Source of the DNA: Dryococelus australis
Lineage: Eukaryota > Arthropoda > Insecta > Phasmatodea > Phasmatidae
NCBI GenBank assembly: GCA_029891345.1
Contig: CM057009.1
Coordinates: 296,051,966 to 296,115,965, forward strand
Direction: 5' to 3'
Length of the DNA: 64,000 nt
Part shown: in pieces, positions 1,453-21,180 of the stretch
Numbering within the stretch: position 1 is the stretch's first letter
Layout of the letters: every line of letters begins with the position of its first letter
Notes under the pieces: generated by a model
What the model was told of the DNA's origin: nothing
What the model saw: the letters and a program-made list of their open reading frames with translations, nothing else
Databases searched by the model: none
Program-made: the position numbers and the translations under genes

Positions 1453-2085
1453 GTTATAGATGGTAAGTCTTCAACCATTGATGCCATCTTCAGCAGAGTA
1501 CACGATCATAGGAGATGATTCCACTCGTGATGATCTGTCTTCTGCCATGGTCGTTGGCGAGATTACATACATTCTTACATGACGCAAGCTTATATTCTGT
1601 TTTCACAGCAGAACAACTGGTATATGTTACCCATTTCAACTATCACTATAGGTCTGCTGAGTATGAATAAGTATAAAATAAATATGTGCGATGCAGTGTT
1701 ATACGAAGGATAATCAACAGTTGATGTATATGGCCGATTCTGAACCACCCCACATTTTCAATAAATAATCAAGCAATTTGAGGCCAAAATCAAGGTCTCT
1801 TGCTCCAAAATCATGGTTTAAAATTTAAGAACTTATGCATTCTAAAAAACAAGCAAATTTACCCCAAAATCAAGCAAATATGCCACGTTTTCAATAATAG
1901 TGTGCATATTTATGTCTCCTTAAAAACATTAAATTCTAAGCTAAAAATCAAGCAAGATTCTCGCTTTTCAAGGAAAATTTTCATGTTTTCTAGAAATAGC
2001 AATTTTGCAAGCGAGAAAGCAAATTTAAGAGAAAATCAAACAAAATAAGTAAAAATCAAGTGAAAATATTTAAAGTAAGGAAATT
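1453..2085. repeat. Polinton 1 left TIR, proximal segment
   Basis: This aligns as the inverted copy of 19035-19398 plus 20432-20690. Landmarks are GGCCGATTCTG, CTTATGCATTCTAAAAAACAA and GAAATAGCAATTTTGCAAGC, all present in reverse complement on the right. The part from about 1728 inward is non-coding and very AT-rich. The outer part covers the start of the zinc-finger relic and the conserved stretch around TTTCACAGCAGAACAACTGG. Confidence 0.85.
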
Positions 2086-2211
2086 TTAACTAGAAAAATG
2101 ATTTTTTATTTTATAAAAAATTTTAATGCAACCATTCAACTATGAGTCCAAAATATTGTATTAAAATATCGAAGCATTTTGTTGATTCTTCTGTGTAATA
2201 AAATAAAAAAT

Positions 2212-3491
2212 TTATATATCTTCAGTGATATTTTCTTCCAAATAATCATAAGTTAAATTTCGTTGGCTAATTAAAACAACATTACAAATTGTACCAGCGA
2301 TAACAGCTTTCTTAAAATCACACTAATTTTTATATCTGTTTTATCTTTAACTACTGGTGTTTTCTATATAGGCAGACAACAACATATAAAGGTCTTCGCC
2401 CCCAAAATGAATAATAATTGATATCGTCATGATAGTTTGCAGTTGGCGTATAATAAAGATCATTATTTCTATATATAGTATATAATTTTGTTCTTGAATT
2501 TCTACAATCATTAAAAACCAGAAACATTTTAAGACAAAGATCATTTTCAATATCTAGCTTCCAATTTTCTTTAGGAAAAATATAATTTCTTCCATTTTTA
2601 ACAAAAATATTTCTCACATTAAAAAGATCAAATATTGAAGCATGCACATATTGCTCAGCACAATTTTTTCTATTAGCTTGAAAACCCACAATTACAAAAT
2701 CAGGTATGTCAAATTGCAAATTATTAAGGTGATCTTTTATATCGAGGTTAAAAACAGTTGCCCCTGTAGGAACTTCTTTTTCTAAAAATTGCCAACACTT
2801 AAAAACCTATATGAACTTCAGGATTGTTATATATATTTTCTTTAATTGCAATAGATGAGTTAGATTCGTTATCATTAATAGGCCACAAAATTTCCAATTT
2901 TTCAATAAAAGTTTTACCTGGATCAGCATAGTCTCTATCAATTGTAGTGCCATCTGCTTTCTTAGTTTCATAAACAAATAATCAATTGTTATGAGATGAA
3001 TATCGGAAAGAAGTGATTTTATAACCACCTTTCCAATAAATTTCATTATTATCGCGAATAAAGCCAAACGAATGTCTGAACGGATACATTATTTCATTTA
3101 TTTTATCACTACGGACATATTTTACTCTAAATTTATTATCAACACTAGTAGACTCTAAATAATTTTGTTCACCTGGTGATCTTAGCAAAATATTCATCAT
3201 TGTTGAAGTTTCTCCTGGATTATCAACAGCCTCAATAATCAGTCCATGTTTTGAAATGTCTATTCTAGAACACTGAAATGGGGAAAAAAATAGAACAAAC
3301 ATTAATATTATCTAATTTTTCGTATTTTGCCTTATGTCCAGTTTTATCTCTTTTTAGTAGACGATATTCTTCCAAAACATAAGCATAATTTGGAAAAGAA
3401 AAGCTATCACCTATGGGAATATGAAACTAGATTCTAATATTGCAAATATTTAAATTCCTCCTCTTTTGATCAGTTGGGGGAAATGTTTGTT
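2212..3491 (-). pseudogene. Polinton major-capsid-type protein (putative double jelly-roll)
   Basis: This minus-strand coding relic of about 400 residues is broken by several frameshifts. It shares blocks, in the same order, with the plus-strand gene at 38660-39905 of element 2: a DNPGETSTMMN block near 3220 (counterpart DPGITSTAKN), a PDFVIVGFQANRKN block near 2700 (counterpart KPRYIIVGLQTGR), and a C-terminal beta-rich tail ending in NITEDI at 2212. This family accompanies the integrase, protease and ATPase in animal Polintons and is taken as the capsid shell protein. The capsid assignment is from family knowledge, not from a structure comparison. It is transcribed towards the left TIR and diverges from the gene at 3546. 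Confidence 0.6.
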
Positions 3492-3545
3492 TCTCAAAAC
3501 TCTTAATACTTTTTAAAATCATTTATAAGTAAAATATATATAAAA

Positions 3546-4533
3546 ATGAAGGATTCAGAGGGGGTTCATCAAGTTAAATTTCTCATCGAGAAGTATAGAA
3601 ATTATAAAAAGGACCACGAGGCAGAATATTAAAAAAACAAGGAAAACTTCAACCATTAATTCGTGAATCACAAAATATTTGCAAAAAAGTAGAACAAGTG
3701 AAGAAAATAAAAAATTAATATCAACACTAGTTCCAGTAGTAGCAAAAAAAATCAGATTATCCACCAACTCCTGAAGAAACATCTTCTGAATGAGAATTAT
3801 TCTCACAACAAAAAACTCCTGAAGTCCTTGGGATATATGCCATTAAAATATTTGCCTTTTAAAGAAGATGATTCCCCTATATATCTAGGAAAATAAATTG
3901 CTAAAGAACTTGGTTTATATGAGCAATATGATTTAGTTAAGAAAGGTAAACACATCTATATTGGTGATAAAAAAGAGAAAATAATATACTAACTGTTGAA
4001 ATAAAAAATATATATTAACAAAAGGACTTTCTAAATTGTCAAGAAAAGATAGTAAAGGAGATCTTAAATACAATAACGCTGAGGATGATCGTAAAAATTA
4101 TAAAGAAATTGCTAAAGTAATAAATTTAGTATATCAAGTTTATGATCCCAAGAGTCAAGAAAATTCGAATAGGAGTTGGAAATACAAAAAAATAATTAGG
4201 CCAATTTATCAAGATATACTAAAAGATATACAAAAAGACCAACTGAGAGCTAAATATAGTTTGGAGGATTTTAGAGAAGATGATTTTAAATTTGGAGATG
4301 GCTTAAAAAAATATAATAATTTTCCGAAAGAATTTATTTGGATGGACAATGTTAGAAAATTAATCGACAGATTATTAGTTATTCATGGTCGAGAAACTGC
4401 TGGAAATAAAAATTATCACAATGAAAAAGTTAACATAGTGAAAATCCTAAACAATAAATTTTCTGCTTTTGTTGTGAATAACCAGAAAAGAATACCATAT
4501 CTTATACGAGTTTTAAATATTATTCTATACTAA
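3546..4533 (+). pseudogene. conserved Polinton ORF of unknown function
   Basis: The gene probably starts at ATG 3546 (MKDSEGVHQVKF) and is broken by stops near 3639 and in the 3800s-4010s. From 4036 to 4533 it stays open for 165 codons. The C-terminal block (NVRKLIDRLLVIHGRETAGN) matches the minus-strand relic at 29432-29803 of element 2 (PNKLLDRLQLLLASQRPGN), so this is a genuine conserved element gene rather than chance. The protein is lysine- and asparagine-rich, without a signal peptide or membrane segment. Its biochemical role is unknown to me. A protein of this type accompanies capsid genes in other Polintons. Confidence 0.6.
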
Positions 4534-4588
4534 TTTTAGAATTATGTACACCATGGCAAAGGCGTGATAAATTGAGCATTAAATAATT

Positions 4589-4918
4589 TTAATTTGCCCG
4601 AAATGCATTTGCCGGATTATAATTAATGTTCGCCATTTACAAAAATTAAATGAAAGATTAGAAAGAAGAGATGCTGGAGTGAATAAACTAAATAAAGCTT
4701 GCAAATTTCACGATATTGCTTATAGAGATCATAAAGATTTATAATTCAGGCATGAAGCAGATAAAATTTTTGAAAAAAGCTAAAGAAGTTATGCTAATTA
4801 AAGATACTACAATTGGAGAAAAAAATTGCTTCTGCTGCTGTTGCCTCAACTATGTTTACAGAAAAATTAGGATGGGGCATTAAATTTTATCAAACTATTA
4901 ATATAATTTTACTTATAT
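4589..4918 (+). pseudogene. phospholipase A2-like (parvovirus VP1u-like) domain protein
   Basis: The short frame contains the phospholipase A2 catalytic signature ACKFHDIAYRDH near 4710-4745, with the His-Asp pair of the PLA2 family. It is preceded by a calcium-loop-like CSPFT near 4618 and a stretch resembling a secreted-PLA2 N-terminus. Element 2 has the same module at 36950-37135 (CKQHDITYSKHKDL). Domains of this type occur in parvovirus capsids, where they help breach endosomal membranes, and in Polinton-like viruses. A stop follows the Ca-loop cysteine region and another sits after HKDL, so this copy is dead. The next small ORF starts at 4921, two bases after this region. Confidence 0.6.
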
Positions 4919-4920
4919 AA

Positions 4921-5080
4921 ATGAGCATACCAAATATTACTTTCGATATTCCTTATGAGGAATTAAAAAATTTGGGTATAGATCATTTTTTAACAGATGA
5001 ACAAATTGCAAAGGAAAAATAAAAAATTGCAAGAGGGAAAGAATTTCAAATTAAACTTTACCATTGCCAACAGTTAAAAA
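4921..5080 (+). pseudogene. small ORF between PLA2-like and protease genes
   Basis: A frame starting at ATG 4921 (MSIPNITFDIPYEELKNLGI) runs about 33 codons to a stop. Acidic and basic residues continue in the same frame after it. I do not recognise the product. The tight spacing with its neighbours and the acidic DIPYEELKNLGIDHFLTDE character suggest a real small gene of the capsid operon-like block. Confidence 0.35.
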
Positions 5081-5625
5081 ATGGCTAAAGAAAAATCTGG
5101 CAATGGTTTACATCATGGAGGAACTGTTTCCATTGTACTCACCACTTTAGGAACGGCTGTTGCAATTTATAGTGCTGTTGAACAAACTAGCAAAAATAAA
5201 AATGTGTTATAAAAACAACAGAGACACAATTTAGCAAAGGAAAACAAGGCTGGCAGTGGCGTAGTTGTGAAAAAAAGAAGAAGGCCAAAAAATTTAACTC
5301 CATTATCCAATATCGATATTGAAACATATATAAAAAAAATTAAATATTAAAAATTTCAGAAATATTTATATGATTGATGAACTACCAAAAAATATGCTAA
5401 AAAGTGAATTTGCTGTGGTTAATTTTGATAATTCAACAAATCCTGGCACTCATTGAGTTTGCTATTTTAAATAAAATAATATTGTTTAATATTTTAATTT
5501 ATTTGGAGGCAATATTCCCACTAATTTAACTAATTATTTCAAAAACGATAATGTTTATTACAATGACTACAGAATTCAGAATTTTGATCCAGTTATTTGT
5601 AGCCACTATGTTTAATAGCGTTATA
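5081..5625 (+). pseudogene. small hydrophobic protein followed by adenain-like cysteine protease
   Basis: The first part (about 5081-5215) encodes a short protein with one hydrophobic Gly/Thr-rich segment (VSIVLTTLGTAVAIYSAV). Element 2 has a similar segment at 37300-37370. The second part resembles the adenovirus-type maturation protease: MIDELPK, then FAVVNFDNSTNPGTH with the catalytic His near 5453, an acidic block VYYNDYRIQNFDP, and the catalytic Cys in VICSHY near 5600. The expected Trp codon directly after the catalytic His is a stop (TGA), and there are frameshifts. Proteases of this kind cleave capsid precursors during virion maturation. Stop codons also separate the two parts, which may have been separate genes. 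Confidence 0.65.
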
Positions 5626-5689
5626 TATTTTTTCGAGAAATTTCAAGTTTAACGAAATAATTTATTTGTTATTAAATTACAGATATATC

Positions 5690-6790
5690 CAGGAAACCAT
5701 TAATCAAATATTTAAATAAAAACTGACAATATTGTTGAAGATTTAAAAAATATTTAAATTCAAAATGCAATTCATGTGTTTCTTCTTTACAAAGTGAGTT
5801 GAGCACTGCTTTTGATTTTACAAAATTATGTGTTTCTTTTCTGTGGAGAAGAATTGTTAGTCTAAGCGAGCCTATCAATAATAAAGATGTGGTTAATAAA
5901 AGATTTTTTGAGATACATATAGCAGAGTATGCAATAAAAAAAAATGTTGATTCAAAATATTAAGGTATTGTTTCTAATTATCCTCTAAAAGAAGATATAA
6001 ATTTACATTTACATAACACTACCGCTGATTATATAAAACGAATAAACAATACAAAACAAACATTAAAAAAAGAAGCAGATTCAATATATAAAACTATTGT
6101 TCCTGATTATGCATTAAAAAATGTTGTTGAATCAAAATACAAAACTATTGTTTCTGACTATGCTTAAAAAACGATGTTGAATCAAAATACAACACTAGCA
6201 TTTCTGATTTATAAACATGCGTAGATTCAAAATATAATACCATTGTTTCTGATTTACGAGATCAAATAAGTAATGTTTTTGTTTACACAACATACTATGT
6301 TTATATTCAAAATTGTAGAATTAATAATATGGCTGATCCTATTGATGGAAAAGATGCTGTAAACAAAAGATATTTCGATAAAGAATAAAATTTAAACAAA
6401 TCAGTTGTGAGTTACTGCGACACACTCGTTAACACGAAAGTCGAAAAAAGCAAAGAAACTGTTGATAAAAAATTAGATGTCAAATTACAAAATTAAAGCC
6501 AATCAATTGAAAAATTTAAGGAAGAAATATCTCATATATTTTATTTGTGGGGAAAGTGGAATAAAAATGATAATATATTCGCATAGACGATGATGCATTT
6601 TTTTTTCTTATTTGGTGGATTGTACTGTTTATAAAATAATTTCTGATAATTTATCATATGATGCTGTAACTGTTATCAAGGGAACTACAAAAATAGATTA
6701 CAGTAAATCATTTGATGTTAACAGAGATGAGTTTTTAACTTTTAAAATAAATAAAAAATTATCTAATTATTTTGTTGATGGAATGTTGAC

Positions 6791-6795
<5 letters not shown>
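5690..6795 (+). pseudogene. fibre-like repeat protein
   Basis: This region encodes repeated modules rich in Asp, Lys, Tyr and Val. About four copies of a unit near 57 bp run from 5940 to 6260, each reading like ESKYKTIVSDYALKNVV. Two copies of a DxVNKRxF motif (NKDVVNKRFF near 5885, GKDAVNKRYF near 6355) flank them. The same motif appears in element 2 (AKDAATKHFVLE at about 30640). DAVNKRY-type motifs are typical of phage and virus tail-fibre or coiled-coil stalk proteins, so a receptor-binding or stalk role is an inference. A final open segment, 6612-6795, is cut by an (AT)n expansion. Confidence 0.45.

Positions 6796-6796
<1 letters not shown>

Positions 6797-6864
<68 letters not shown>
6797..6864. 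repeat. (AT)n microsatellite
   Basis: About 34 uninterrupted TA units lie at the 3' end of the fibre-like gene. A second run is at 6899-6912 and others at 9318-9356 and 11169-11182, all within element 1. Confidence 0.95.
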
Positions 6865-6866
<2 letters not shown>

Positions 6867-6876
6867 CAAGTATATA

Positions 6877-6934
6877 AACAAGTATTTTCCATTGAACTAT
6901 ATATATATATATAGTTCAATGGAAAATACTTGTT
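6877..6934. repeat. perfect 58-bp palindrome over the integrase start
   Basis: Two 24-base arms (6877-6900 and 6911-6934) are exact reverse complements around a 10-base AT core. The right arm is the beginning of the integrase gene including its ATG at 6919, so the left arm is an inverted duplicate of the coding start. This looks like fold-back or template switching primed at the neighbouring (AT)n run. Confidence 0.95.
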
Positions 6935-7913
6935 GTTTGAAATGCAAGAAAGTCACTAAAAATAATAATATGAAAAATGAGAATACAACAAATGGGCGAT
7001 TAGTCCAGAAAAGTATATGTTCTTTTTGCAATTCTAAAATATCAACATTCTTAAGAAAAAAATTGCTCAATGTGAGAGAAGGAATAATTAATGAGTTAAA
7101 TAAACCTGCGCGAAAAAATTTTCCAAGAAGAAAAGTTATATCATATGGCATGGTTGATTTATGGCAAATTAATCTTGCATAAATGGATACTGGAAATTTA
7201 AAAGGTATATCACATTTTATTACAATTACAAATATATAATGACAATTATTGATGTTTTTCAAAAATTAGCTTTTGCTTTACCAATAAAAGATAAAACAGC
7301 AGAAAAATGTAGAAAATGCTTTAGAAAATACTTTGATGAAAAAAAAAAACCAAATAATTTACAAAGTGATATTGGCTCAGAATTTTATAATAAAATAAGT
7401 AAATAACTTATGGAAAAATATAAATAAATCTTTTTTCTTTATTTTCTGAATTAAAAGCTAGTGTCGCTGAGAGATTTATTCGAACTATAAAAAATATATA
7501 CTGCAAAAAAATGCTATGAATGGTAACTACAAGTGGATAAATATATTGGATGAATTAGTTAAAGAGTACAACAATACAATGCACAGCACTATTGTTATGA
7601 TGCCAATTGAAGTTAATAAAAAAAATTAAAACAATTTATTAAGAACAAATTTTTTGTTTACTAAACAATATATAAAGTTGGTGATTTTGTTCATGGCAGC
7701 AAACTGAAATTTTTTTTTAAATGTTATACTGCTAATTGGTCAACATAATTGTTTATTATTTGTAAAGTTTTAAATTTTGATGTGCCAAATTATAAATTAA
7801 ATGATATAAATGGGGAAGGAATAAAAAGTAGTTTTTATGAATATTAAATTAAGGAAACATACAATCCCGATAAATATTTGATCAAAAAAAGTTTTAAAAA
7901 CTTAAGTCAATAA
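6919..7913 (+). pseudogene. Polinton retroviral-type (DDE) integrase
   Basis: The start at 6919 (MENTCCLKCKKVTKN) opens a zinc-binding N-terminus with two CxxC pairs (CLKCKK and CSFCNSK near 7025), as expected for this integrase type. A basic PARKNFPRRKV linker precedes the rve core. The core acidic residues are visible in DLWQINL (about 7160), QSDIGSEFYN (about 7370) and VAERFIRTIKN (about 7465). The C-terminal chromo/SH3-like part includes YKVGDFVHG near 7672, and the gene ends with KSFKNLSQ at 7913. Stops at 7180 and frameshifts after 7400 inactivate it. The enzyme would process the TIR ends and join them to host DNA. Confidence 0.85.
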
Positions 7914-7985
7914 AATTTATGTAAAGGGGTCAGGTTTTGATAATTCTCACAACTCTTGGATTAATAAAACTGATATAATGTAAAT

Positions 7986-9315
7986 TTAAATATTTTTACT
8001 TAAATGCACAACACAATTAACCACATCAACTATAACAAAATTTATATCATCAGGATTAAACCTCATAAATTTGCAATTTAATGGTGTCTCTATATACTCT
8101 TGCCTCTCTATTTCATAATTAATATTTCTATCTCTGTGGTTCAATTTGTCACACTCAATAGCTAATTTTATATCTGGAAAATATAAATCAATTATATTAT
8201 TATCTACTTTGTATTGTTCTTTATAGTTAAAATGTTTAAAACAGTTAATAATGTGTGAAATATATTTTGTTTCTTTTTTTTTTTTTTTTCAAAAACAGTA
8301 AATTAATTTTTATTTTTTTCATATTTCCAGAACCTGTGCTCACAGGCTCTGAAACACCATAATGAATATTAAAATAAAAATTAGTTTCTTACTCAATTCG
8401 ACAAAGAATAGTTATAGAATGTAGTTATAGAAAAAACCCATGTTTTCATTCATTGTTTCCTTCATTATTTGGTATAAATTTATAGAATTTGGAATATATT
8501 CAAATCTCAATATTTCTTCACAATTTGGATGTCTATCTTGAATCATATACAATTGTCTTTGAACATATTTTCTTTGAGTTCTAATAACATTATAATCAAA
8601 TTCAAAATCATTATCAATAATTCTAGAAGAATGAAATTTGGATTTAAATTTTGGTTTTGTGTTTGAAGTACATCAGGGGCCATATCTCTAACTACCTCAT
8701 TTCTGTGATTTATTCCATCCAATGCTCAATCAACTGTGTGTGTTAAATTTTCAATATGACCACCATTAATTTTATTTATTTTCAATGTGTTAATGTTTAA
8801 TTTTATTTATATTTTTTAAATGATTAACTTTAATTTGGTTCATTTTTTAAATGTGTTTTATTTGACCTTTGAATAATTGCATTACATCTTTTCGAACCTT
8901 TAATTCGCCTTGTTTTCTAATTGATAGAATAACATCTTCAAATGTCCATGTTTTAAAAACTTTAGCAATGTCACAATGCAAACTAAAATAAATTCAGCTA
9001 AACCAGGCTCATTAATATAATCTGCTTTGCCTTTGTTATAAGAGAGGTGGTATGGATTTAGCATACCACCTGTTTTTGAAAGAAAAGATCTAGATTTTAA
9101 AGAAACTTTTTTATAAAAGAAATCTTTATATTTTGCTGTTCTAGAATTTCAGCAATATCTTTGCAACAAAGCCAAGGATTATTTTCTCATCAATAATCAT
9201 AGAAACTCGTTTGCTATTGTAAATAAATTTGTTGTTATTTACATCCAGAATAGGCTCCATTTTTATTTACGAAACTATCCACAAGTGAAATTGGAATTTC
9301 TGAGTTGTAATAACT

Positions 9316-9359
<44 letters not shown>

Positions 9360-9463
9360 CAAACCTCCCTATCTAAATTAATAGCATTTTCATCTATTAG
9401 AAATAATGGCTGAGTATTAGTTGCAATAATAACAGGAGAACATTTATGAATAATATATTTCAT
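7986..9463 (-). pseudogene. BRO-family (Bro-N) protein with nuclease-like C-terminal domain
   Basis: Minus-strand relic. The likely start is ATG 9463, 12 bases from the mitochondrial insert. An N-terminal stretch with WLCCKDIAEILEQQN (about 9150) and YINEPGLAEFIL (about 9010) followed by KTWTFEDVILSIRKQGEL (about 8920) matches the Bro-N DNA-binding domain of baculovirus, entomopoxvirus, ascovirus and phage proteins. The C-terminus is a well kept open stretch, 8240-7986. Its blocks DLYFPDIKLAIECDKL, RDRNINYEIERQEYI and CKFMRFNPD match the domain often attached to Bro-N, MSV199 and T5orf172 proteins, which looks like a PD-(D/E)XK-type nuclease. Frameshifts and an (AT)n insertion at 9318-9356 disable the gene. 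BRO proteins are usually viral transcription or replication regulators. In a Polinton this is accessory cargo. Confidence 0.7.
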
Positions 9464-9479
9464 TATATACATTTTAATA

Positions 9480-9873
9480 ACAATAATAATAACACTTTCA
9501 ATAAATGTTTATACAAATTTTCATATTAATCAACTAATATCAATAAATGAAACCATATATATTTATAATTTATTTTATTAATTAATATATTATCTATTAG
9601 AGGATTATGTCCTATAATAGGGTTTTTACCCAAATGAATAGTATTTCAATCATCAATAAATATAAATGAATTAATAATTATAAAAACAATAGTGATATTA
9701 ACCTTAATTACTATTTATAATTAATTATGTATAATATATACAGCACTAATATGAACAAATTCAGAACCAAAATGAAATTAAATACTTATTTTAAAAAATA
9801 GACCAATAATACCTATTACAATCATCACTATTACAGTGATTATTTACAATTACTATAATAATGAGAATTTATT
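9480..9873 (+). pseudogene. ND2: NUMT fragment of NADH dehydrogenase subunit 2
   Basis: The C-terminal half of ND2, read with the invertebrate mitochondrial code, shows FHINQLMSM (about 9520) and then LSISGLCPMMGFLPKW (about 9590-9635), the conserved GLPPFLGF-type motif of insect ND2. Internal stops mark decay. It directly precedes the trnW relic, as in insect mitochondria. Confidence 0.85.
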
Positions 9874-9940
9874 AAGGATTTACGTTAAATTAAACTATTA
9901 ACCTTCAAAGTTATAAATAAAGAATTATCTTTAAGCCTTA
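9874..9940 (+). tRNA. trnW: NUMT copy of mitochondrial tRNA-Trp (TCA)
   Basis: The acceptor arms AAGGATT and AAGCCTT pair with one mismatch. The anticodon loop CTTCAAA carries TCA at 9905-9907, as in insect mitochondrial trnW. It lies between ND2 and trnC. As part of the nuclear insert it should not be expressed. Confidence 0.8.
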
Positions 9941-9998
9941 GTATAAAATATACCTTTAAATTTGCAATTTAAAATTATTATATGAATATAAAACCAAT
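9941..9998 (-). tRNA. trnC: NUMT copy of mitochondrial tRNA-Cys (GCA)
   Basis: The minus strand holds an anticodon stem-loop with TTGCAAA (GCA at 9963-9965 on the complement) and a GGTTTTATA 5' end typical of insect trnC. The following trnY is largely missing before the COX1 start. Confidence 0.6.
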
Positions 9999-10033
9999 AG
10001 TAAACCAATATCTCAGCCACCTTACTAATGAAA

Positions 10034-10405
10034 CGATGACTCTTTTCAACTAATCATAAAGATATTGGCACCCTATATTTCATATTAGGGATTTGATCAG
10101 GAATAATTGGATTGTCAATTAGAATATTAATTCGAATAGAACAAGGAAGACCAGTATCAATTATTGGTAATGACAAAATTTATAATACACTTGTAATGGC
10201 TCACGCCTTCGCAATATTTTTTTTATTTTATACCTATTATAATTGGAGGTTTTGGTAATTGATTATTACATATTATAATTCGAGCCCCTGATATAGCCAT
10301 CCCATATATAAGCAATATAGAAATTTATTATTACCCCCTTCATTAACATGTTTAATTATAAGAAGGATAGTTGATACAGAAACAGGAACAGGATTAACAT
10401 TATAT
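10034..10405 (+). pseudogene. COX1: NUMT fragment of cytochrome c oxidase subunit I (5' end)
   Basis: This starts with the CGA-type insect COX1 initiator region and reads LFSTNHKDIGTLYFM, a WSGMIG-type block, MAHAF and ETGTG, i.e. the N-terminal quarter of COX1. A run of extra T near 10220 and a short deletion near 10310 shift the frame. Confidence 0.9.
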
Positions 10406-12012
10406 GTATATATTCTTTTTTATGAAGAAAATAAAAAATTTAAGAATATAATTTTTATGAAATATGGACCAAATTCATTAATAAATATTGTGTGTGGTTG
10501 CATATTTTGTGATTCACTCCTCCCTATATTTTCATTAAAAAATTGTATATTTCTGTATAATTATATAGCTATTAAGGAGTTAAATTTTTTAAATCATTAA
10601 CCGTATATTTTATTTCATTTATAATTTCATTATAGGATTTGCACTTTATACCAAACAATGAAATGCTATTTTTGCCAACTCTTTTCATTTTTTGTAAATT
10701 CAGTATATTCCATGAACGTTTCATTAGCAAAGAAATGTAATAAACCATTTGTATATCTAAAAGCTGAGTCTATAATATTAGGTAAATTAGGAAATTTCTC
10801 ACTATTAGACCAAGCTTTTATTTTATCTGGAAACGATGCCCATCTATTTCTGCAAATACAACTTTTCATAAAAGATAAAAGTTTTCCCCGAATATGAATT
10901 AAAAACATTTATTTTATGCTCATCTCTTAATCCAAATAAAGCGAATTTTTTTGGGTAACCACCAATAAGATTATAACTAGGATTATCAACCATATAAATT
11001 TTTTCGTCAACAAACAGGAACAACTTGCCTCATGGTCTTTGGAATATAAAAAAATTATTGAAATTGGTGGGTAGGAACTGAAACCAATTTCTTATCGAAA
11101 ATGGCTTATTGGTTATTTTCTTGTCTCCATTTTTATTGTAAAAAAAACATACAATTCACAATGTTTATATATATATATATATTCGTCCTTGCATAAATCA
11201 AATCGTTCATCATCATTAAAATTATTTTTTAGTGGTGGTCCATAAATGTTTTGAATATTTTAAATATCGTCTGGTTGCAAATCAACCAAATCATTGTTGA
11301 GAATTGGGTACATGATTGCATTTGTATCATTTGTTTGTTGAAGACCTAATACATGTCCAATTGCGTGGCTCAAAACCACTAGTAAATGAATTTGTTTTGT
11401 CAGGAGTGTATTTACCACCATTATGCCAATATTCCTGCATATTGATGTGAATTTCAACGAGGCTATTTGGTTTATTTGGAAACTATGCATGAGCCAGTGC
11501 ACTACCGAATTGATATAATGTATAAGGACAAACACCACGCAACCTATGAGTATTATGTAGGCCTTGTTTATATGATATCAATATACCTGAAGAATATGTA
11601 TAGTAAACAAATTTCAAATTTGTGTTTTTTTCCAACTGTTAAAAGCCTCTTTTGCTAAATTTGTAATTGATTTATTTGCATACGCAAAATTCCACTGTAA
11701 TGAGATTTTAGTCCATTTCGCTGTTGATGAAAGGTCCACAATTATCCCATCCTTAACACCACATCTTGGCTTGTTGAATGAATTGTCTTTTCATTGCGTT
11801 TACCATCAAATTAAGAGAGGTTGTGATATTCTTGAAATACTCTTAAAGAACCTTCAAACTTTTCAGCATCCATTTGTGAAAGCGAATTTGGATCACCTGC
11901 TAGATATCCATATTTATTTTTAAAAATGTATAACATATTTTGCCTGATTATCTTTTTTGGCTAGTACAAAAATTATATTTGCAATAGCCAGAATAATTAT
12001 GTAAGTCTTCAT
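10406..12012 (-). pseudogene. matrix metalloproteinase (prodomain + catalytic + haemopexin) carried by Polinton 1
   Basis: Starts at ATG 12012 with a signal peptide (MKTYIIILAIANIIFVLA). A propeptide follows with an LRVFQEY block and the cysteine switch KPRCGVKDG near 11770-11745. The catalytic domain has WTKISLQW, a FGSALAHA segment, and the zinc-site region LSHAIGHVLGLQQ near 11372-11335, followed by the Met-turn NDTNAIMYP and the domain end DDI and NIQNIYGPPLK. A haemopexin-like domain occupies about 11200-10410 (IDSAFRYTNGLLHFF near 10790, KFALFGLRDEHKI near 10950). The zinc site is damaged: the HExxHxxGxxH Glu reads Ala and the third His reads Gln. There are several frameshifts. Family members cleave extracellular matrix, and insect viruses carry relatives. 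Placement between the ATPase gene and BRO, inside the element, argues for captured cargo. Its 3' end abuts the NUMT. Confidence 0.85.
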
Positions 12013-12081
12013 TTATACACAGAAGATTTAAAATATAATAAACTCATTAATTTTATTTTTGTACTTCCCTTTATTCATTTT

Positions 12082-12735
12082 CTATCTAAATATTATGTAA
12101 AAAGCACAACTTTCGTCCCAGCACTTGGCACATTTCTTTAAATTTCTCAAAACTCATGTCTCCTCCAACAAAATCGCAATATATATATATAATGTCTCAA
12201 GTGTGTTTCATCTTGTCGAAATATACACAGAAAATTTGTGTTATCTCGTACTAATTGCTTGGGGACTCTGTAATATGTCTGTGCAAGATAAAAAACATCA
12301 ATACTTTTATGTCAACCTCTAGTAACATGTTCGTTGACTACATCTTGCTCATCCGATATTACATCAAAAATAACTAGAGAATTATATTCACATTGATCTA
12401 GTGAAACCATTCCACGATTGCTACTTAAAAATAATCCATTTTTTTTCTATTTTTGGATGTCAATTCAGAAATATCTTGTAATTGAATATATTTTGGCTGA
12501 TTCAAACTTTTAGAGCAAACATAGCATTTATTAAAATTTAGCCATCCTGTCTTATAAAATAAAATTAATTAATAAAGTTGTCTTCCTATTGATGCTGGGC
12601 CCAACTATCATACCTCTAATATATTCAGGGAAAAGTTCGCCATTTTTTTTTATTCTTGGAACTTTCCTTAGAAATTAAAACATCAACAACCAAGTTAATT
12701 TTTCTATTAAATACAATATTTTTTTAATAAATGGG
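12082..12735 (-). pseudogene. FtsK/HerA-type DNA-packaging ATPase
   Basis: The Walker A region reads GMIVGPSINRKTTLL near 12610 (a degenerate GPSGxGKT). A Walker B-like stretch SLVIFDVISDEQDVV lies near 12365. The C-terminal block AQTYYRVPKQLVRDNTN (about 12275) and LKKCAKCWDESCAFY follow, ending at 12082. The same C-terminal blocks occur in element 2 at 30900-31150 (GQTYSRIPEQMLGDNAN). In Polintons this ATPase is thought to pump the genome into capsids. Several frameshifts and a lost glycine in the P-loop make it non-functional. It is divergent with the minor-capsid gene starting at about 12740. Confidence 0.8.
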
Positions 12736-12739
12736 TAAT

Positions 12740-13371
12740 AATAAAGTTTTCAAGTTAACAACCAATAGTTCTATTCTAAAGAAGAACTTCACTATGATAT
12801 AATTCATAAAGATAAACTGATAGCATTAAGTAGTTTTCATGCCGAATTTTTAACTCGAAATGTAGATAATAATACTATAACTAAAATTGAAAAAATGTGT
12901 TCTGTTGTTGATAAAAAAAAATACTGTTATAAATATTTCCAGAAGCCAATATTATGTTGAATCATTAATAGAAGCTATAAATTTAATTGAGCCATTTTCA
13001 AGAAATAAAATTTAAATAACAGACAATGTGAAAAATAGAATTACAATTAAAACCAAGTGTGATATTAAACTTGCTGATCACTTGTAGGCATTAAATTGTC
13101 TAATTTGTTTACATTAAAAACAACCAATGTTCATTGTAATCTGGCTTATAATATGTTTTAAAAATATGATGAATCTAACCACTTGGATACAAATCTAATT
13201 GCTTGTTTTCCACCAAGAACTGTGTTTGGTTTTAGAAATTATATAATTTATGAGCCCCCATATCCAATTTTTATACAATTAATAATGAGCAAGTTAATAA
13301 CATTGTTCTATAAATGAGAGATAAAAATGGAAATTTAATTTATTTTAATGGTATTTTGCTATTTCATTAGA
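12740..13371 (+). pseudogene. minor-capsid (penton)-type protein
   Basis: This plus-strand relic reads through blocks SRSQYYVESLIEAINLIE, ITIKTKCDIKLADHL, ACFPPRTVFGFRNYIIYE, and a closing strand MRDKNGNLIYFNGILLFH that stops at 13371. Element 2 has the corresponding ending VAVIFVDQHGYLVNF at 38539. A closing D-x-x-G-x-L-I/V-x-F strand is what I expect from the single jelly-roll minor capsid protein of Polintons. The assignment rests on this pattern and on the position next to the ATPase gene. Stops and frameshifts are frequent. Confidence 0.5.
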
Positions 13372-13472
13372 AAACATAAAGGGTTTCCCTGTTTTGGGGA
13401 GCCCTTTAATATCTCCAAAAGATAAAACTTTTCTTTCAGAAATAAGTGGGATCCAAAATGATGTGTTGAATT

Positions 13473-16400
13473 TTATTCATTTTCTTCATCTTCATCAACT
13501 TCAGGGTATCTGAGCATCTGCCCTGAAAATTTAAAACAAATTCGCTATATGATTTGTAATATTTTTTCCTTACTCATTGCACCTCTCATTAATAAAATAT
13601 AAAAATTTTCTTTCAGAAATTTTGTTATCCATATGGCAAGTTCTATTTTATTTTCTAGTATAATTCACTTTTTATCACAAGGACTCAATGCTATTTTATT
13701 AACTTCGATTGTAAATATATTGTGTTTCTAACTTCTTATCAAATTCATTGTCCTATATTGAATTTTCTCATCAAACCCACATTTCTTATAATCCTTCAAA
13801 TTAATTCTATTATTGATTACACATTTATTCACGCCTTTAGACATTTTGTTTTATTTATCGCCAACTCTAAATGCAAACATTTTTGCTATTTAACCAACAA
13901 ATTCTTTCATAATCTCCCATTACATTCATCTTTCATTTTGCCTAAGACTTTCTTATTTATTTGATACATGTTATAAATATTGCTCTTTGGATAATCGCTT
14001 GTATCAAATTTATATAACATTGTCTTCATGTCTTCATAAAAATCATATGTTTTAATGTTATAATTGTATGAATTAATATCTTGATAACACCACTCAATTT
14101 AATCATATTTTGGTTTCATCGCTTTATAATGGAAGTCATAAATAAATTAATTTGATATATCTGAAATGGAAATACCCACTTAAATAGGTTTATTAAATTT
14201 TGCAGTTGTTTTATTCATGTGTAGAGCCACAAGATTCTCAGTAAATATAGTATTTCTTTTGAAATTTGGTTTTGATATTCATTTTTCACATATTGCTGCA
14301 TCTGATATTAATCTTATATACTCTGTTTCTTATATTTTCCATTGTTTTGCCAAACACAGAATTATTCATGAGCTTATAAAAAAGATTCTAAATACTTTTC
14401 TATTTGTTCCCATCTATGTATGCAACTCAATATATTTCTTTAACCAATCAGACTGATCAAACATCAATATCATATATATTATAGTGAGATTTAATCAATT
14501 ATTTAGAAAGTTGCAATAGTAAATTACATACTTTTGTTTGGTATTTAATGTGTTTAATAATTTAGATTGATTTGTCTTTGGAACTACCTTATTTTCTGGG
14601 CAAAATGGAAGATATTTATGTAAATTATGTAGTTCTTGTGGATACTCTTTATCAACCTCTAATATTTAATCATGTTGTGAATCATGTTTCAAATTTAATA
14701 TTTTTTCACTCCAGTAATCTCAATCATATAGTGAATAGCAAACCCAATCGAAAACTCCATATGGTAAATATGGAGACATTGCCCAACCATATAAATTATT
14801 TGCATCGAGATATGGTAAATAATTATATTCCTGATTAGAGTTAAAATCATCTAAATATTTGTTATTAGTTAACATATCACTTACAACATTGTGATATGCC
14901 ACCTCTAATTCCCTTTTCACTAGTTAAAATCATATCATAATTGTGTAATAAATCTAGTGCTTGTTTAGTCATTTTTAACATTACTTCCCACCATAATCCT
15001 GGTGCTGTAAAATACCACACTGGATCTAAATCATATGAATTTATACATATATTTATAAAATATTCGAATATATCTACTAACATTTATTCATCAGTTTTTA
15101 AATATAAATCATGGTTTTCGCCAAGTTTTTTAATATTAAATTGGTTCCATATATTTTTTGCATGTTCGTATCCATCATCAAATATACTATTTTCGTTTAA
15201 TTTATTGTAAAATTCACATTTTGGTGGAAGTTCAGTTTCATCCTATTTCTTCCAACTATCCATATAATCATAAGGTAAACTCCTTGTCTAATAACTAAAT
15301 CAACTTGATCTTCTGGAAAATAATTTTGTGTGTGTTTTATTTTATCTTTACTTAAATTATATGATAATTTTTCTAAACTTCTAGCCATAAATTTGAATGT
15401 GTCTATAAATTTAATTTTTAAATTTTCTGTGATTTTCCAAAAGTTATAAACTTTTCTTCATTAATTGCAATAAATTCTATTTTTTTTTCATCATACCCGA
15501 TCTCTTTAATAAATAAATGTGCATTAATATCCAGTTAAATTGTGACAATAAATTGGAACAAAATTTGGTAATTTTAATTGTAAATTAAAATTGTTGCATG
15601 TTGGTTTAATGAATTATCCACTTACGTGATCATGATGATCTTTTTTTTACTGTCCTTTGTATATTCACCCTCATATAGAGCACATTTTTTTATTTACTAT
15701 ATAATATTTTTTCTTCTTTTGTTAATGGGTGCATTGGTTCAATTTGTGAATATATTTCACCAATTTCTTCTACTTCTCTTTTTATTGATTGTATAAATAT
15801 TTTATGAGCATTTGGACCGCGATATACTACTGGAGGCTTATTATCACCATAAGCAGATACAATATAATAGCAAAAACCAGAATCTTCATGAAGCTGATAT
15901 ATCATTGTACATGATGCATCATTCAATTTTAAATCAATGTTATTTATTTGTGCATTTGTAAGTTTATATTTTTCTTTGAGTATTTCTTTGTAAAGACCAT
16001 TATCAATTTTATTTTCTATTAAAACTAGATATTTATTAATTTATATTTATAAATTTCATTTTCTTTTGGTTTAGTTGTTGATATTTTATTACACTTGATT
16101 CATAATCTGCATATATAGTGAATGGAACCTATATTGTATCTTCTTCATTTTTGAAAAAAAAAAAATATTTGCTCTCCTTTTGAATGTAATTGGATTTTTA
16201 CTGCTTCATTTTTTGAACAGTCTTCTGTGTGTTTACTTAATTTCTCTTGAGAAGAAAATGTTTAAAGTCACATATAGCATATATAAGTTTTATGTTGTTT
16301 ATTATTTTTTTGTGCTGAAACTAACCTCGATAAATCTTTAATCCAACAGTAATGCGAGTTTGTATCATATTTGAAATAAAGTAAATTTATACGTGTATTA

Positions 16401-17110
16401 TTTTTATTTTTGAGTGTTTTAAAGGATATGCCATGGATTTCTTACCTTCATCTTCAATAGAGTATACATTTATGGATATTTCAATATGATTATTTTTGTA
16501 TATCATCAATTTTAATTTAATATTCAAATTTATCTCTTACTTTATCGATATTAAGCCCCCACATTTACATATTTGGTTACTCTATCTGAATGGCTGTCTG
16601 CTGGAAATAATGCAGATTTTACAGCCCAAAGAAAGCATTTTTGATCTTTGTTTTTAACATTCATGCATGCTTTCTTAACCTTTATAATTCAGGTAGTTCA
16701 ATATATAATGCGGCATTTAATGAACTATATTTATTTATTGCTAATTGTATCCACATTATTCTATCTAAAGTCCACCCCGAATCTTTTTTTGGAATTCAGA
16801 AAAATTTGTAATTATTTCTTGTGTAATATGCATTTGTAAATTCTTTTAATATCTCGATCATTCAATATTGTATAATTTGGTGATTGAAATGTAAATAATT
16901 CAACTTGATTATTTTCTTGCTTACTACAATTGATGTATAATTTAATGCTGGTTTTCAAGTCTATAAATTTTATAAGATGTTGATGTATTTTCTCAAATAC
17001 CTTATTTTTTACTGAAGTGAAAAAATGAATAGGTTGTACTAAATTTAAAGAATTTTCGATGTTATATGTTGATATACTATTTTTAAACTTTATTAGCTAA
17101 GTAAGCTTAA
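13473..17110 (-). pseudogene. protein-primed family B DNA polymerase
   Basis: A long minus-strand relic with many frameshifts. In order it shows GNCYYIVSA-like and KPPVVYRGPNAHKIF (about 15840), LSKDKIKHTQNYFPED with IRQGVY (about 15330), DLDPVWYFTAPGLWWEVMLK (about 15020), EKGIRGGISQCCK (about 14890), YLDANNLYGWAMSPYLPYG (about 14790), a FDTSDYPKSNIY block (about 13990) and GKMKDECNG (about 13940). These are the conserved blocks of Polinton and other protein-primed PolB enzymes, including the DxxNLYxxxM motif of the palm. It ends with an acidic tail at about 13473. The enzyme would copy the linear element from protein-primed ends. The N-terminal limit is uncertain. Confidence 0.85.
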
Positions 17111-17163
17111 TTGGTTTCCTTATTTCCTTTATTAATGAAAACATTAGTAGAAAATGGGAAAAT

Positions 17164-17514
17164 TTATTTCACTTGCTTTTTATCTTGTTTATATGTGTTT
17201 ATATCAGCATCAAATAAAGGTAAATTTGTGAATTTATAATTTGTTCTACTTGCTGTGACACGTTTATTTTTATCTATAGGTTTTAGAAATACATTAATAG
17301 AAAATGTGAAGATTTCTTTTAATTGTTTTTTAGCTTTTCTATATTTTATAGTGTAATTTGAAAAGGGCAAATTTATAAAGTTTCCTTTTCTTTGATGATT
17401 TATAATAAATAGTATAACAGCTGCAATTAAAACAGTTTTCTGTATTCTGTGCAAATATTTTATTTCAAATCTTCTACCTATGATTCTTAACCCTCTCACT
17501 GTCTTTTCGCTCAA
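17164..17514 (-). pseudogene. ORF upstream of PolB, possibly its N-terminus
   Basis: An open stretch of 116 codons rich in Lys, Ile and Phe, in the same direction as the polymerase and just upstream of it. It contains YTIKYRKAKKQLKEIF. I do not recognise a domain. The position fits either the polymerase N-terminal extension (the site of many terminal-protein-like regions) or a separate small gene. Confidence 0.35.
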
Positions 17515-17660
17515 ACCATAATTTCTCTTCGAAGATTCTATATTTGTTTATTTAAAAGGAAAAAAAAATTAATTGCAAAATAAAAAATACAAGAATAAAA
17601 TATATTGGAATAGCATCAAAAATATGTTAAAATTATTGGGAAATCATATTTAACTTCTTG

Positions 17661-18313
17661 TTAAGGATAATTCTTAAGACATTCACCAAAACAATTTTTA
17701 CACATAGTTGTATGTTGATCCTTACAATATTTATTATAAGAAAATAATTTTATAGATTTATTCTCATTACAGAATGTGAAGGTATTTGGTTGGATAATTT
17801 TCCTTTTGAATTTAATTTAGAATATCTTTTGATGTGTTGTGGGATTTAGTTTTTTTATGGTTTTCGAGCTGTTGATTATAAATATATTTTCCACATTCGC
17901 ATAGTACTTACTCTTTTTTTTAGCTCATAATAATTTTTGGCATATTCATTCATACATTTTTTGCATTTTGTTGGAAGTTTGTCTATAGTTTCTTTATGTA
18001 GATAAAATGAATCCATTGATTTATTCTCGTTACATACTACACATGTCTTCGTTGAATAATCATGTTGGTTTTGGTTTTTATTGTGCGATTTACTATTTTT
18101 ATGATTTTTGAGAGATAGTTTAGAAACATATTTTCCACATTCGCATAGTACTTTCTCTTTTTTAACTCATATTGATTTTTTTTCATATTCAGCACAACAT
18201 TTTTTACAAGTGTTAATATGCTTGTCTTTTGTGTATTTATGCATGTGAAAGCTTTCTTTATTTAATACTTCATCGTATTTTTTACATTGTTTAGATGTGA
18301 TATTATTTTCCAT
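17661..18313 (-). pseudogene. triple zinc-module protein
   Basis: Starts at ATG 18313 (MENNITSKQCKKYDEVLNK) and ends at 17661. It contains three copies of a Cys4 module: CKK-type start, about 25 residues with FH/FYxHKxTxDK, then CKKC. They lie near 18270, 17970 and 17730 (examples YLHKETIDKLPTKCKKC and KYCKDQHTTMCKNC). Between them sits CECGKYVSKLSLKNHKNS, present twice. Such C-x2-C...C-x2-C modules occur singly in many large DNA viruses and phages near endonuclease domains, but no nuclease core is visible here. Two internal stops break it. A DNA- or RNA-binding role is plausible but unproven. Confidence 0.5.
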
Positions 18314-18399
18314 TGTATTTATTTATAAAATGAATTTATTGATAGATTGAAGAAATATTTTTCTTTAATAATTTGTTCCTTTGTAAATAACACAAAAAA

Positions 18400-18690
18400 A
18401 TGGAATCTCTGCTCAACAATTTGAACAATTCACTTGAATTCACTAAACTGCAAGATATAGAAAAAAATTAATGGTTTACTGCTACAGATTTTGAAATATA
18501 TGAATCTAATTTTGGTAAAAAATTAATTGTATTCTAGATGGCAAATTTAAAATTTCATTGCCAGAGCGCTAGTCAAGATACTTGATAAAAATTCTTTAAA
18601 ATTAATAAATGAGAAGGAGGTTTTTATAATTTATAAAGGCTTAAAAGAAATGAAAAATGGAAAATTTGTCCATGATCTAGAATACACATA
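18400..18690 (+). pseudogene. small ORF (about 95 codons) next to right TIR
   Basis: Starts at ATG 18400 (MESLLNNLNNSLEFTKLQDI), continues with WFTATDFEIYESNFGKKLIV and ends KNGKFVHDLEYT at 18690, with one stop and one frameshift. The beta-rich pattern and small size suggest a nucleic-acid-binding (OB-like) accessory protein, but I cannot assign a family. It is divergent from the zinc-module gene at 18313. Confidence 0.4.
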
Positions 18691-18759
18691 AGCACATTTA
18701 TAAAATAATGAGTTAATTTTTTTATTCTTTTTAACAAATTTGTTTCTTTATAAATAAAC

Positions 18760-18990
18760 ATGACTTCGCCTATTTTTCGTTGCAGTTTGACCCATGTTTT
18801 AAAAGGTGGCGATGGTGCAAGTCCACCGTCTTATAAATTAGATAAAGCACCTGGTGATCTTAAAAATTTAGTTCACACATTTCATTTCAATTTACAAAGG
18901 TAACAATTAACCATTTTAGAAAATATTAACGATCAATATGAACTTCGAGAAATGGGTGGATATTCAGAGGAAATATAGCAAGTGTTAAAA
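18760..18990 (+). pseudogene. small ORF ending near right TIR
   Basis: ATG 18760 (MTSPIFRCSLTHVLKGGDGA) runs 47 codons to a stop at about 18903, with a possible continuation ENINDQYELREMGGYSEEI. It lies downstream of the ORF at 18400 in the same direction. No family recognised. Confidence 0.3.
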
Positions 18991-19034
18991 AAAATTGTAA
19001 GGCTTCGAGTATAATATTTTTTGTTTGTGTCAAT

Positions 19035-19398
19035 TTTATTTTTTAATATTTTCATCATTTTTTGCTTATTTTGATTGATTTTCTCTTAAATTTTCTTGCT
19101 CGCTTGCAAAATTGCTATTTCTTGAAAACATGAAAATTTTGCTTGAAAAGCAACAAATTAGCTTGATTTTAGCTTAAAATTTAATGTTTTTAAGGTGGCA
19201 CAAAGCCTGCATGCTATTAATGAAAAAAGTAGCAAATTTTCTTGATGTTGGGGTAAATATGATTGTTTTTTAGAATGCATAAGTTCTTAAATTTCAAACC
19301 ATAATTTTGGAGCAAAAAAACTTAGTTTTGGCCTCAAACTGTTTGATTTTTCGTTGAAAGTGTGGGGTGGGCCAGAATCGGCCTTAAACATCTACTTA
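19035..19398. repeat. Polinton 1 right TIR, proximal segment
   Basis: Reverse complement of about 1728-2085, with scattered substitutions. It ends outward at CCAGAATCGGCC, matching GGCCGATTCTG on the left. Confidence 0.9.
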
Positions 19399-20431
19399 AA
19401 CCCGTCCATTATCTAACCTGCGAATCCATCCATCAAATAACCATTCGTCTGTACACTTCAACTTCATTCGCCTTTGTTTTCCTTATTTATCTAGTAAACC
19501 CATTTTATTTCACATCATGCATATAACGGAAGTAATTCTTTAGGTAGGTAGGTATACAAGTTCAGTAACTGTGTTGAGTGCTGCAAGTGATTTAAGCTTT
19601 ACATATGTCCCATTAGCTGATAAAAATTATCTGACTACTAGAAAAACAAACCATCATTTACACTATACATCCACGACAAGAGAAAGCCATTTGGGATTAT
19701 TCGTAGCAAGACACATATGCTGTTTTTATATGTCTAAATATGATGTAGCTAATTCTCATGTCACTCAAACTCAATAAGAGAAAGAGAACTACTTTCACTA
19801 GCCTTGCAAGAAACTAAAGTTTAAATCCAACATCTTAGACCGCTCGACAACCCGACAAGGTCAGAAAAAGATTGTATAATGAAAACTCTTAACCTTTTCC
19901 TTGAATTATGCCATAGGATCATGAACTTACTTACCATATGTTTAAAATCTTCCATTCAAGACAAATATAACCACGATATTTTACCACAATTTTAATTATA
20001 CAGAAAAAAATTATAATACCTTCGCGATTGGGAGCACTCTGAGAAAACCCAAGGACATGTTCGCCTAGATGAAAACACATAGGAATATAAAAATCTACAA
20101 GATATTTATGTATGTATATATATATGATAGGAAAATATACTTATCTAAAAGATATGTATATATATAATTATCAGTAAGATAGGAATATACATTATTGTAT
20201 ATAAGATAGGACTATAGATATGATGTGTTTTCTTCTGGGTGAACATGTCGTTGGGTTTTCTCAGAGTACCCCCAATCGCGAAGATATTATAATTTTTTCT
20301 GCATATTTAAAATTTTGATAAAATATCATAAATAAGAAGACAAAAGGTGTATACAACATTGAATGAAGTATAAGCGTAAAGACGAATGGTTGTTTGATGA
20401 ATGGATTCGCGGGTTAGATATTGGAAGGGTT
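19399..20431. mobile_element. 1.03-kb non-autonomous DNA transposon in the right TIR
   Basis: Its ends are inverted repeats of about 75 bp: AACCCGTCCATTATCTAACC at the left and, on the complement, AACCCTTCCAATATCTAACC at the right, continuing through CCATTCGTCT. It has no counterpart in the left TIR, so it inserted after the element. No transposase is present. The superfamily is not identifiable from the ends alone. Confidence 0.8.
20001..20301. mobile_element. 301-bp palindromic MITE nested in the 1.03-kb transposon
   Basis: Ends CAGAAAAAAATTATAATACC and its inverted counterpart GCAGAAAAAATTATAATATC enclose nearly palindromic arms sharing CTTCGCGATTGGG, CTCTGAGAAAACCCAA and ACATGTTC. The centre is a TA-rich stretch with repeated GATAGGA-type motifs. 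It is a miniature element inside a larger one. Confidence 0.75.
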
Positions 20432-21180
20432 GATTATCCTTCGTATAACACTGCATCGCCCATATTGCTTTTCTACTTATTCATACTCAGCAGACCTATA
20501 ATGAGATAGTTGAAATGGTTAACATGTACCAGTTGTTCTGTTGTGAAAACAGAATATAAGCTTGCGTCATGTAAGAAAGTATGTAATCTAGCCAACGACC
20601 ATGGCAAAGACAGATCATCACGAGTGGAATCATCTACTATGATCGTGTACTCTGCTAAAGATGGAATCACAGGTTGAAGATTTACCATCTATAAACCTGT
20701 CAGAATCGTCAATAGCAAGAAGCCCTGAAGAGTCGCTGCAAACATTAAAGTATCAGTGTTACTATTGTGAACATACCTTCAGTAAAAGTTGCCATGCACA
20801 TCGTCATGAAAGTGGACATTGTTTGTTCAGTCAGCCCAGCATGTAAGGCATTCCACTGTGATAACTGTAATGCTGTGGTCACCCGAGGTGATAGCCTGTA
20901 TAGACATATCAAGACGTGAAAAGGAAATTTTCGTCCATCGGGAAGCGAGTGCAAGTATTGTGGCAAGACATTCGCTAAGCGAGCCGATGCCAGATGTAAT
21001 GAAGAGTGTCAATTTCCATTTGCCACAGTCAACAAGACCAACCATGTGTTAACTGTTGTGGGGTATATGCAAGTAAGAGTGCCTGGAATGCTAACAGCAG
21101 GAAGTGTTCTGCAAATAAAGAGTCACCATTAATGTTTTGCTTGAATGAAGAATAAGTTGAACATGTATCACATATTAGTA
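20432..21180. repeat. Polinton 1 right TIR, distal segment
   Basis: Inverted counterpart of about 1453-1727 and 235-620, sharing TTTCACAACAGAACAACTGG, GCTTGCGTCATGTAAGAAAG and the zinc-finger coding relic. Similarity fades at about 21180. Confidence 0.7.
20661..21060 (+). pseudogene. zinc-finger protein relic in the right TIR
   Basis: Starts at ATG 20661 (MESQVEDLPSINLSESSIA) and shows three finger-like units: YQCYYCEHTFSKSC with a HESGHC end (about 20760), CDNCNAVVTRGDSLYRHIK (about 20860) and CKYCGKTFAKRADARC (about 20955). It is C2H2/C2HC in style. A stop after the second finger and a frameshift between fingers 1 and 2 break it. It is the better preserved of the two TIR copies and shows the N-terminus uninterrupted. 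Element 2 has a related single finger (CHFCGKAFTALQNLRRH) at about 36720. Confidence 0.65.

Follow-up and report, generated by a model that had tools for sequence, protein, structure and literature searches.

Among the closest described systems to the locus analysed here are the Polinton/Maverick elements and the adintoviruses (Eupolintoviridae), with which it has in common terminal repeats, an rve integrase, a double jelly roll capsid gene, and polymerase-like and ATPase-like genes. The terminal repeats of Polintons follow a rule, starting with AG and ending with CT. Matrix metalloproteinases (MMPs) are, to our knowledge, not among the cargo described for either group. MMPs are secreted as zymogens, in which the propeptide cysteine, placed on the zinc, blocks activity until the enzyme is opened by cleavage or rearrangement, and in which the haemopexin-like domain guides the choice of substrate.

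A few other systems offer points of comparison. One is the protease cargo of the nematode Mavericks, likened here by description only, of which a passage in a meeting report states that the wosp proteases, along with krma kinases, are horizontally moved cargo (PMC10680173). Another is the stromelysin-like MMP of a granulovirus, which, according to a passage in the source, is kept in cells until death and then causes tissue proteolysis (PMC3877225); this is an MMP in an insect DNA virus, but a baculovirus and thus a virus of another class, and the likeness is again one of description. A third is the protein named 'collagenase' of Ladona dragonfly adintovirus, which belongs to the same protein family and is of adintovirus origin by name, while coming from another element and another insect. 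One paper mentions this virus by name, among others listed from samples of bats. Our full-text search returned no paper linking Polinton with matrix metalloproteinase or with hemopexin, or adintovirus with metalloprotease, and the original adintovirus paper, which lay outside the search, may describe the gene. Co-mentions of Polinton, Maverick and metalloprotease concerned, by title, other subjects among the matches listed, and in two adintovirus papers (PMC8363768, PMC11071296) the terms metallo-, hemopexin, collagenase and Ladona do not occur. The first-pass annotation of the locus knew of no MMP as standard Polinton cargo; this needs changing, as an MMP-bearing adintovirus is already deposited, and the kind is therefore known.

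A decayed Polinton and its metalloproteinase gene

The window, a stretch of 64,000 nucleotides from Dryococelus australis, contains a Polinton of 17,678 bp (~17.7 kb, positions 1719-19396), with the MMP gene inside its terminal repeats. The features are listed below (L131, L150, L171 and L174 are loci elsewhere in the same genome).

1719..2074, + strand: left terminal inverted repeat, starting with AG; many genome-wide matches begin at or near 1719
2354..3426, - strand: decayed gene for a double jelly roll major capsid protein, two pieces of which are 56-57% identical to the capsid ORF of L131
4000..4777, + strand: conserved ORF plus a PLA2-like piece (weak PF08398 match, E 0.035, below cut-off)
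6790..7626, + strand: decayed rve integrase (PF00665, E 9.9e-7, 29.4 bits, below the cut-off of 32.6)
7989..9148, - strand: decayed BRO-like gene (DUF3627, PF12299, E 1.2e-9, above cut-off; DUF559-like, PF04480, E 8.8e-4, just below)
9355..10404, + strand: truncated nuclear mitochondrial fragment ND2-tRNA-COI (COI at E 5e-24; ND2 and tRNA by eye), adjoining a (TA)n run
10572..12012, - strand: decayed MMP gene, with leader, propeptide with the cysteine switch KPRCGVKDG, M10 catalytic domain and haemopexin-like C-terminal part
12100..12680, - strand: decayed packaging ATPase-like gene, labelled by motif; pieces match L150, L171 and L174
12760..18200, - strand: decayed pPolB-like DNA polymerase gene, labelled by motif; pieces match ORFs of L131
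19041..19396, - strand: right terminal inverted repeat, ending with CT, 85% identical to the left arm

As to the limits of the element, many genome-wide matches of its left end do not extend outward of 1719 or its vicinity, and the outer part matches other places. A 6-bp target site duplication was looked for in the flanks, which read ATCAAC on the left and TAAACC on the right and would amount to no more than a 5-bp repeat in decay (TCAAC/TAAAC). The gene segments of the element have 23-30% G+C; the host DNA lying to its right has 40%. Around the Polinton lies an older dispersed repeat, with inverted arms at 1446-1718 and 20429-20702, reaching outward to ~243 and 21167 and containing C2H2 zinc-finger-like frames by eye; the Polinton seems to have landed inside it. 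An alternative delimitation, with 1446-2074 and 19041-20702 as the repeats of the element and an insert in the right arm, was rejected, the outer parts being another repeat family by their genome-wide matches. Farther along the window, at 52369-52930, is an array of short repeats with open frames on both strands.

The gene assignments differ in their basis. The capsid ORF of L131 is recognized as PF21738 (E 4.2e-27), and the L131 counterpart of the rve integrase matches PF00665 above the cut-off (2e-11); the N-terminus of the window integrase has a weak match to DUF5679 (E 0.009). The conserved ORF and the PLA2-like piece are both retained in the sister copies L173 and L174. The N-terminal part of the BRO-like gene is a by-eye reading to which Pfam gave no match, and so is the Walker-like motif of the ATPase-like gene, a 40-residue piece of which is without Pfam match. 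We take the latter gene for an ATPase, and its neighbour for a pPolB, from motifs, profiles having recognized neither, and searches of Pfam, PDB and PHROGs gave no polymerase match for the polymerase-like ORF of L131. At the start of this ORF (L131:1366-3492) stands a piece resembling endonuclease VII (PF02945, E 9.8e-4, below cut-off; PHROG 423, E 5.2e-4). An adenovirus-like maturation protease gave no Pfam match at E 0.05 in the six frames of 1500-21300, where decay could hide one.

The MMP gene is interrupted by internal stops and frameshifts, with the propeptide, the catalytic domain and the C-terminal part all still present. The frame ending at 12015 matches PF00413 (Peptidase_M10) with E 2.5e-11 and 44.2 bits (cut-off 24), and its top PDB match is stromelysin-1 (E 5.9e-8), the same search aligning the cysteine-switch block as well, at 3 bits. 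When the stop-to-stop pieces were searched singly against 120 database MMPs and the MMP frames of the same genome, colinear matches were obtained for all nine, from 11960 to 10575, with best E values from 5e-5 to 2e-14. For eight of the nine the best hit was either a row of the Polinton-type clade described below or a copy from the same genome; for the ninth it was P0079, an ant protein absent from the tree. Within the colinear pieces no intron was seen, and the signal peptide is a by-eye reading. Protein searches with the broken window frame, stops being written as X, gave nothing above threshold. The zinc site, HAIGHVLGLQQ...MYP, departs from HExxHxxGxxH at the catalytic Glu (Ala) and at the third His (Gln), and the Met-turn is readable.

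The same architecture is found unbroken in L121, an intact relative from the same genome, which has a hydrophobic leader (by eye), matches PF01471 (1.3e-5) and PF00413 (7e-34), aligns over residues 40-473 with an interstitial collagenase with propeptide (PDB 1su3, 3.7e-36), and, like other copies, possesses a complete HExxHxxGxxH zinc site and Met-turn (HEIGHALGIHH...MYP). The PRCGVxD cysteine switch is present in both, as KPRCGVKDG in the window and TPRCGVPDD in L121. Thus the claim of an MMP relic, made on first inspection, is borne out by the M10 profile, the cysteine switch, the Met-turn and the nine colinear pieces. The haemopexin-like repeats of that annotation are weakly supported on the window alone, where the matches are not significant (PF00045, E 0.18; PDB MMP14, E 0.038; MMP13, E 0.046), but they do find firm support in L121 (PF00045, 2e-6), in which Pfam finds a single haemopexin stretch. 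The proposed span, 10406..12012, does hold the MMP, whose gene occupies ~10572-12012; 10405-10571 lies outside the gene, and the proposed start is at the edge of the mitochondrial insertion.

This mitochondrial fragment, in which ARAGORN found no tRNA, separates the MMP from the BRO gene in the window. The two sister copies spanning the site, L172 and L173, are without it, and in L172 the window positions 9329 and 10410 join within a few bases; judged from these two copies, the insertion is private to the window. Similar mitochondrial pieces are scored at 39 other places (from 313 candidates), the genome being rich in nuclear mitochondrial fragments. Those fetched (L209-L213) are parts of longer fragments, three of the five ~95% identical to each other over >2 kb, and the idea of a special repeat family was rejected since all five are longer mitochondrial fragments.

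Metalloproteinase copies in the genome and beyond

A six-frame search of the 3.4-Gb genome resulted in 150 scored M10 matches, from 1850 candidates; 14 of the 150 keep a stop-free frame of 514 aa or longer. Twenty loci were sampled with 8 kb around each, taking every five to seven rows of rows 1-102 of the 150 ranked by score. In 19 of the 20, Polinton genes adjoin the MMP, with the pPolB-like gene directly beside it on the same strand and the capsid gene on the opposite strand. The integrase is also present in 18 of these 19, L150 showing an ATPase piece instead. The order in this main lineage is pPolB-MMP-(small ORF)-capsid-integrase, the capsid and integrase ORFs being recognized by Pfam in L131. 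The remaining locus, L137, is a host MMP; its match falls into two blocks with 0.7 kb between them, as an intron would produce. Elements akin to that of the window are numerous in this genome, and some carry the gene unbroken, so that the MMP looks like regular Polinton cargo rather than a one-off accident. The reading as an MMP carried by a Polinton, rather than as a host retrocopy, is supported, the family having other Polinton copies.

The lineage of the window is itself well represented. A search with the DNA of the window MMP scored 39 further places, some covering part of its length, with 81-86% identity (from 2020 candidates). The zinc site could be compared in 20 of these 39 sister copies: the Met of the Met-turn is retained in all 20, the second and the third His in 18 each, the first His and Gly in 17 each and Glu in 15, with all six positions intact in seven. 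The substitutes are Lys (four copies) or Ile (one copy) for Glu and Tyr (two copies) for the third His, Ala at the former or Gln at the latter occurring in none. On this comparison, the Glu-to-Ala and His-to-Gln changes of the window, left open in the first-pass annotation as decay or an ancestral loss, are private decay; ancestral loss finds no support, with Glu and the third His kept in 15 and 18 of the 20.

The surroundings of the MMP vary among the sister copies. In L171 and L174 the order is polymerase end, ATPase and MMP, after which comes DNA belonging to the plus-strand block of window 4383-6770, and in L172 and L173 a region corresponding to window 18353-19045 is followed by the MMP and then BRO. 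The two kinds have at that place only the MMP stretch in common, of ~1.5 kb and 83-86% identity. Within the fetched stretches, the ATPase adjoins the MMP in two of the four sister copies and BRO in two of the four, and both genes together in none, while the main lineage has pPolB-MMP-capsid. A fixed address between ATPase and BRO, as first described, is thus not found. In total, four MMP neighbourhoods are seen: those of the main lineage, of the window and of the two kinds of sister copies.

Database relatives were recovered with L121, the search giving 421 proteins at E <=0.001. The best 120 of the 421 include the 'collagenase' of Ladona dragonfly adintovirus (P0014, a TPA record; 41% identity over 97% of the query), 'collagenase 3-like' proteins of Schistocerca nitens and Lycorma delicatula, proteins from ants and beetles, and numerous metagenome rows; no baculovirus or ascovirus name is found among these 120, most of whose rows are nameless. 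In a careful tree of 41 chosen rows, 23 form a Polinton-type clade (support 100/99) with L121 and sequences from Ladona, Schistocerca, Lycorma, ant, Tribolium and Henosepilachna, and P0014 falls within a seven-row set with the query family (98/96). The same clade is found in a quick tree of 79 rows (51 rows, support 99). We take the species of the clade to belong to four insect orders besides that of the Ladona dragonfly. Outside the clade are the host L137 and aphid, Trypoxylus (beetle), vertebrate and mollusc MMPs. L137 is placed beside two metagenome rows (99/90), and the set around them (95/99) includes mollusc MMP14 and frog MMP28. The phylogeny against host MMPs that had been called for thus places the family of the relic apart from L137, the only host MMP compared. 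These results further raise the possibility that some insect genes under the names 'collagenase 3-like' or 'stromelysin-like' are Polinton genes rather than host genes.

In IMG/VR, no relative was found by a strict motif (0 loci), by a polymerase piece or by a zinc piece. M10 genes are present there at no fewer than 120 loci by a looser motif and at 34 by family alignment, with a few contigs in both sets. At E 1e-4, 68 of these 154 loci have a match to the catalytic portion of the Polinton MMP, and none has one to the C-terminal portion of that protein, to pPolB, to the capsid or to the integrase. The IMG/VR rows form a clade of their own, whose placement varies, with cellular MMPs in the 79-row tree versus next to the Polinton clade (84/94) in the 41-row tree. 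Seven M10 genes apart from the Polinton type (L005, L008, L013, L019, L035, L043, L052) are on long IMG/VR viral contigs, six of them with the PRCG switch and L052 with PRCA.

Selection, possible exchange and proposed role of the protease

Comparison of the young lineage, represented by L131, with 13 older copies gives the MMP a dN/dS of 0.27-0.36 and the longer polymerase ORF one of 0.11-0.25, the MMP being the less constrained. Among eight older copies (28 pairs) the MMP ratio is 0.44-0.95, and here decay after insertion should dominate. Within the young lineage it is 0.85-1.31, at dS of 0.007-0.013, from the few changes in three distinct copies versus L121. As the older copies are themselves decayed, the ratios that involve them are blurred. 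We read the pattern as one of selection while the elements replicated, with neutral decay afterwards.

The reading that we favour, and consider probable, is that the window holds an old, adintovirus-like Polinton copy whose MMP has decayed since insertion, and that intact MMPs serve spread between tissues. It is supported by the M10 profile and the colinear pieces, the enclosing terminal repeats, the 19 of 20 loci, the 39 sister copies with their retention of the zinc site, the clade at 100/99, the dN/dS values and the differing neighbourhoods. In this scheme, the virus-like phase would produce a secreted MMP zymogen, which would open through its cysteine switch; the haemopexin-like part would dock a putative substrate, and the enzyme would cut the basement membrane, enabling particles to spread between tissues and to reach the germ line. 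It is hardly credible that, instead, the gene derives from a host MMP transcript which entered a dead Polinton, by being copied into it or by landing there, and that the element never carried an MMP. The decay of the window gene and the lack of a visible intron in its colinear pieces would agree with such an event, but the same family stands beside Polinton genes in 19 of the 20 sampled places, 39 other copies of the window lineage are scored, and L137, the sole host MMP compared, looks intron-bearing and falls among other MMPs in the tree. It is also quite improbable that the host has taken over the protease gene and that the intact copies now serve it: while 14 of the 150 rows do retain a frame of at least 514 aa, the ratios of 0.85-1.31 in the young lineage, few changes as they represent, and the position of the copies beside other Polinton genes are expected of recent copying without host selection.

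The alternative that deserves more weight concerns function, namely that the protease may be a factor of virion release or late tissue breakdown, staying in the infected cell and acting after its death, by analogy with the granulovirus stromelysin. Retention of that enzyme until cell death, as described in a passage of the source (PMC3877225), provides a model, and a viral gene could just as well have this function; on the other side, the hydrophobic leader of L121 (by eye) and its propeptide-like and haemopexin-like parts suit secretion, and we regard late release as rather unlikely. As to how virus-like transposons cross tissue barriers to the germ line, a protease gene under selection is a direct candidate. 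A genome with many MMP-carrying Polintons, some with the gene unbroken, presents a testable system, and the protein family links a dragonfly adintovirus to sequences of grasshopper, planthopper, ant and beetle.

The depth of divergence differs along the element. When L131 is set against the 13 older copies, the polymerase ORFs have dS values of 0.73-1.08 (longer ORF) and 0.85-1.04 (shorter ORF). The MMP has 0.28-0.37, the capsid gene 0.27-0.70, its minimum resting on 63 codons, and the integrase, compared in 12 of the 13, 0.41-0.63. By its higher dS, the polymerase half split earlier than the MMP-capsid-integrase half, as recombination would give. The MMP may have moved among neighbourhoods as if a module, and we tentatively entertain the possibility that it is a mobile module exchanged among Polinton backbones, a tissue-barrier protease under selection across insect orders. 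The block swapped may exceed the MMP, since the capsid and integrase genes lie in between. Such a tissue-barrier protease would be part of how the elements spread between tissues, germ lines and species. A small conserved ORF adjoins the MMP as well, with a weak match to the SseK/NleB profile (E 0.015) that is probably due to chance; it encodes 119 aa in L131 (5129-5485, - strand), corresponds to 18353-19040 of the window, L172:4461-4613 and L173:920-1153, and is thus found in the main lineage and in two of the four window-lineage copies, though the rest differs.
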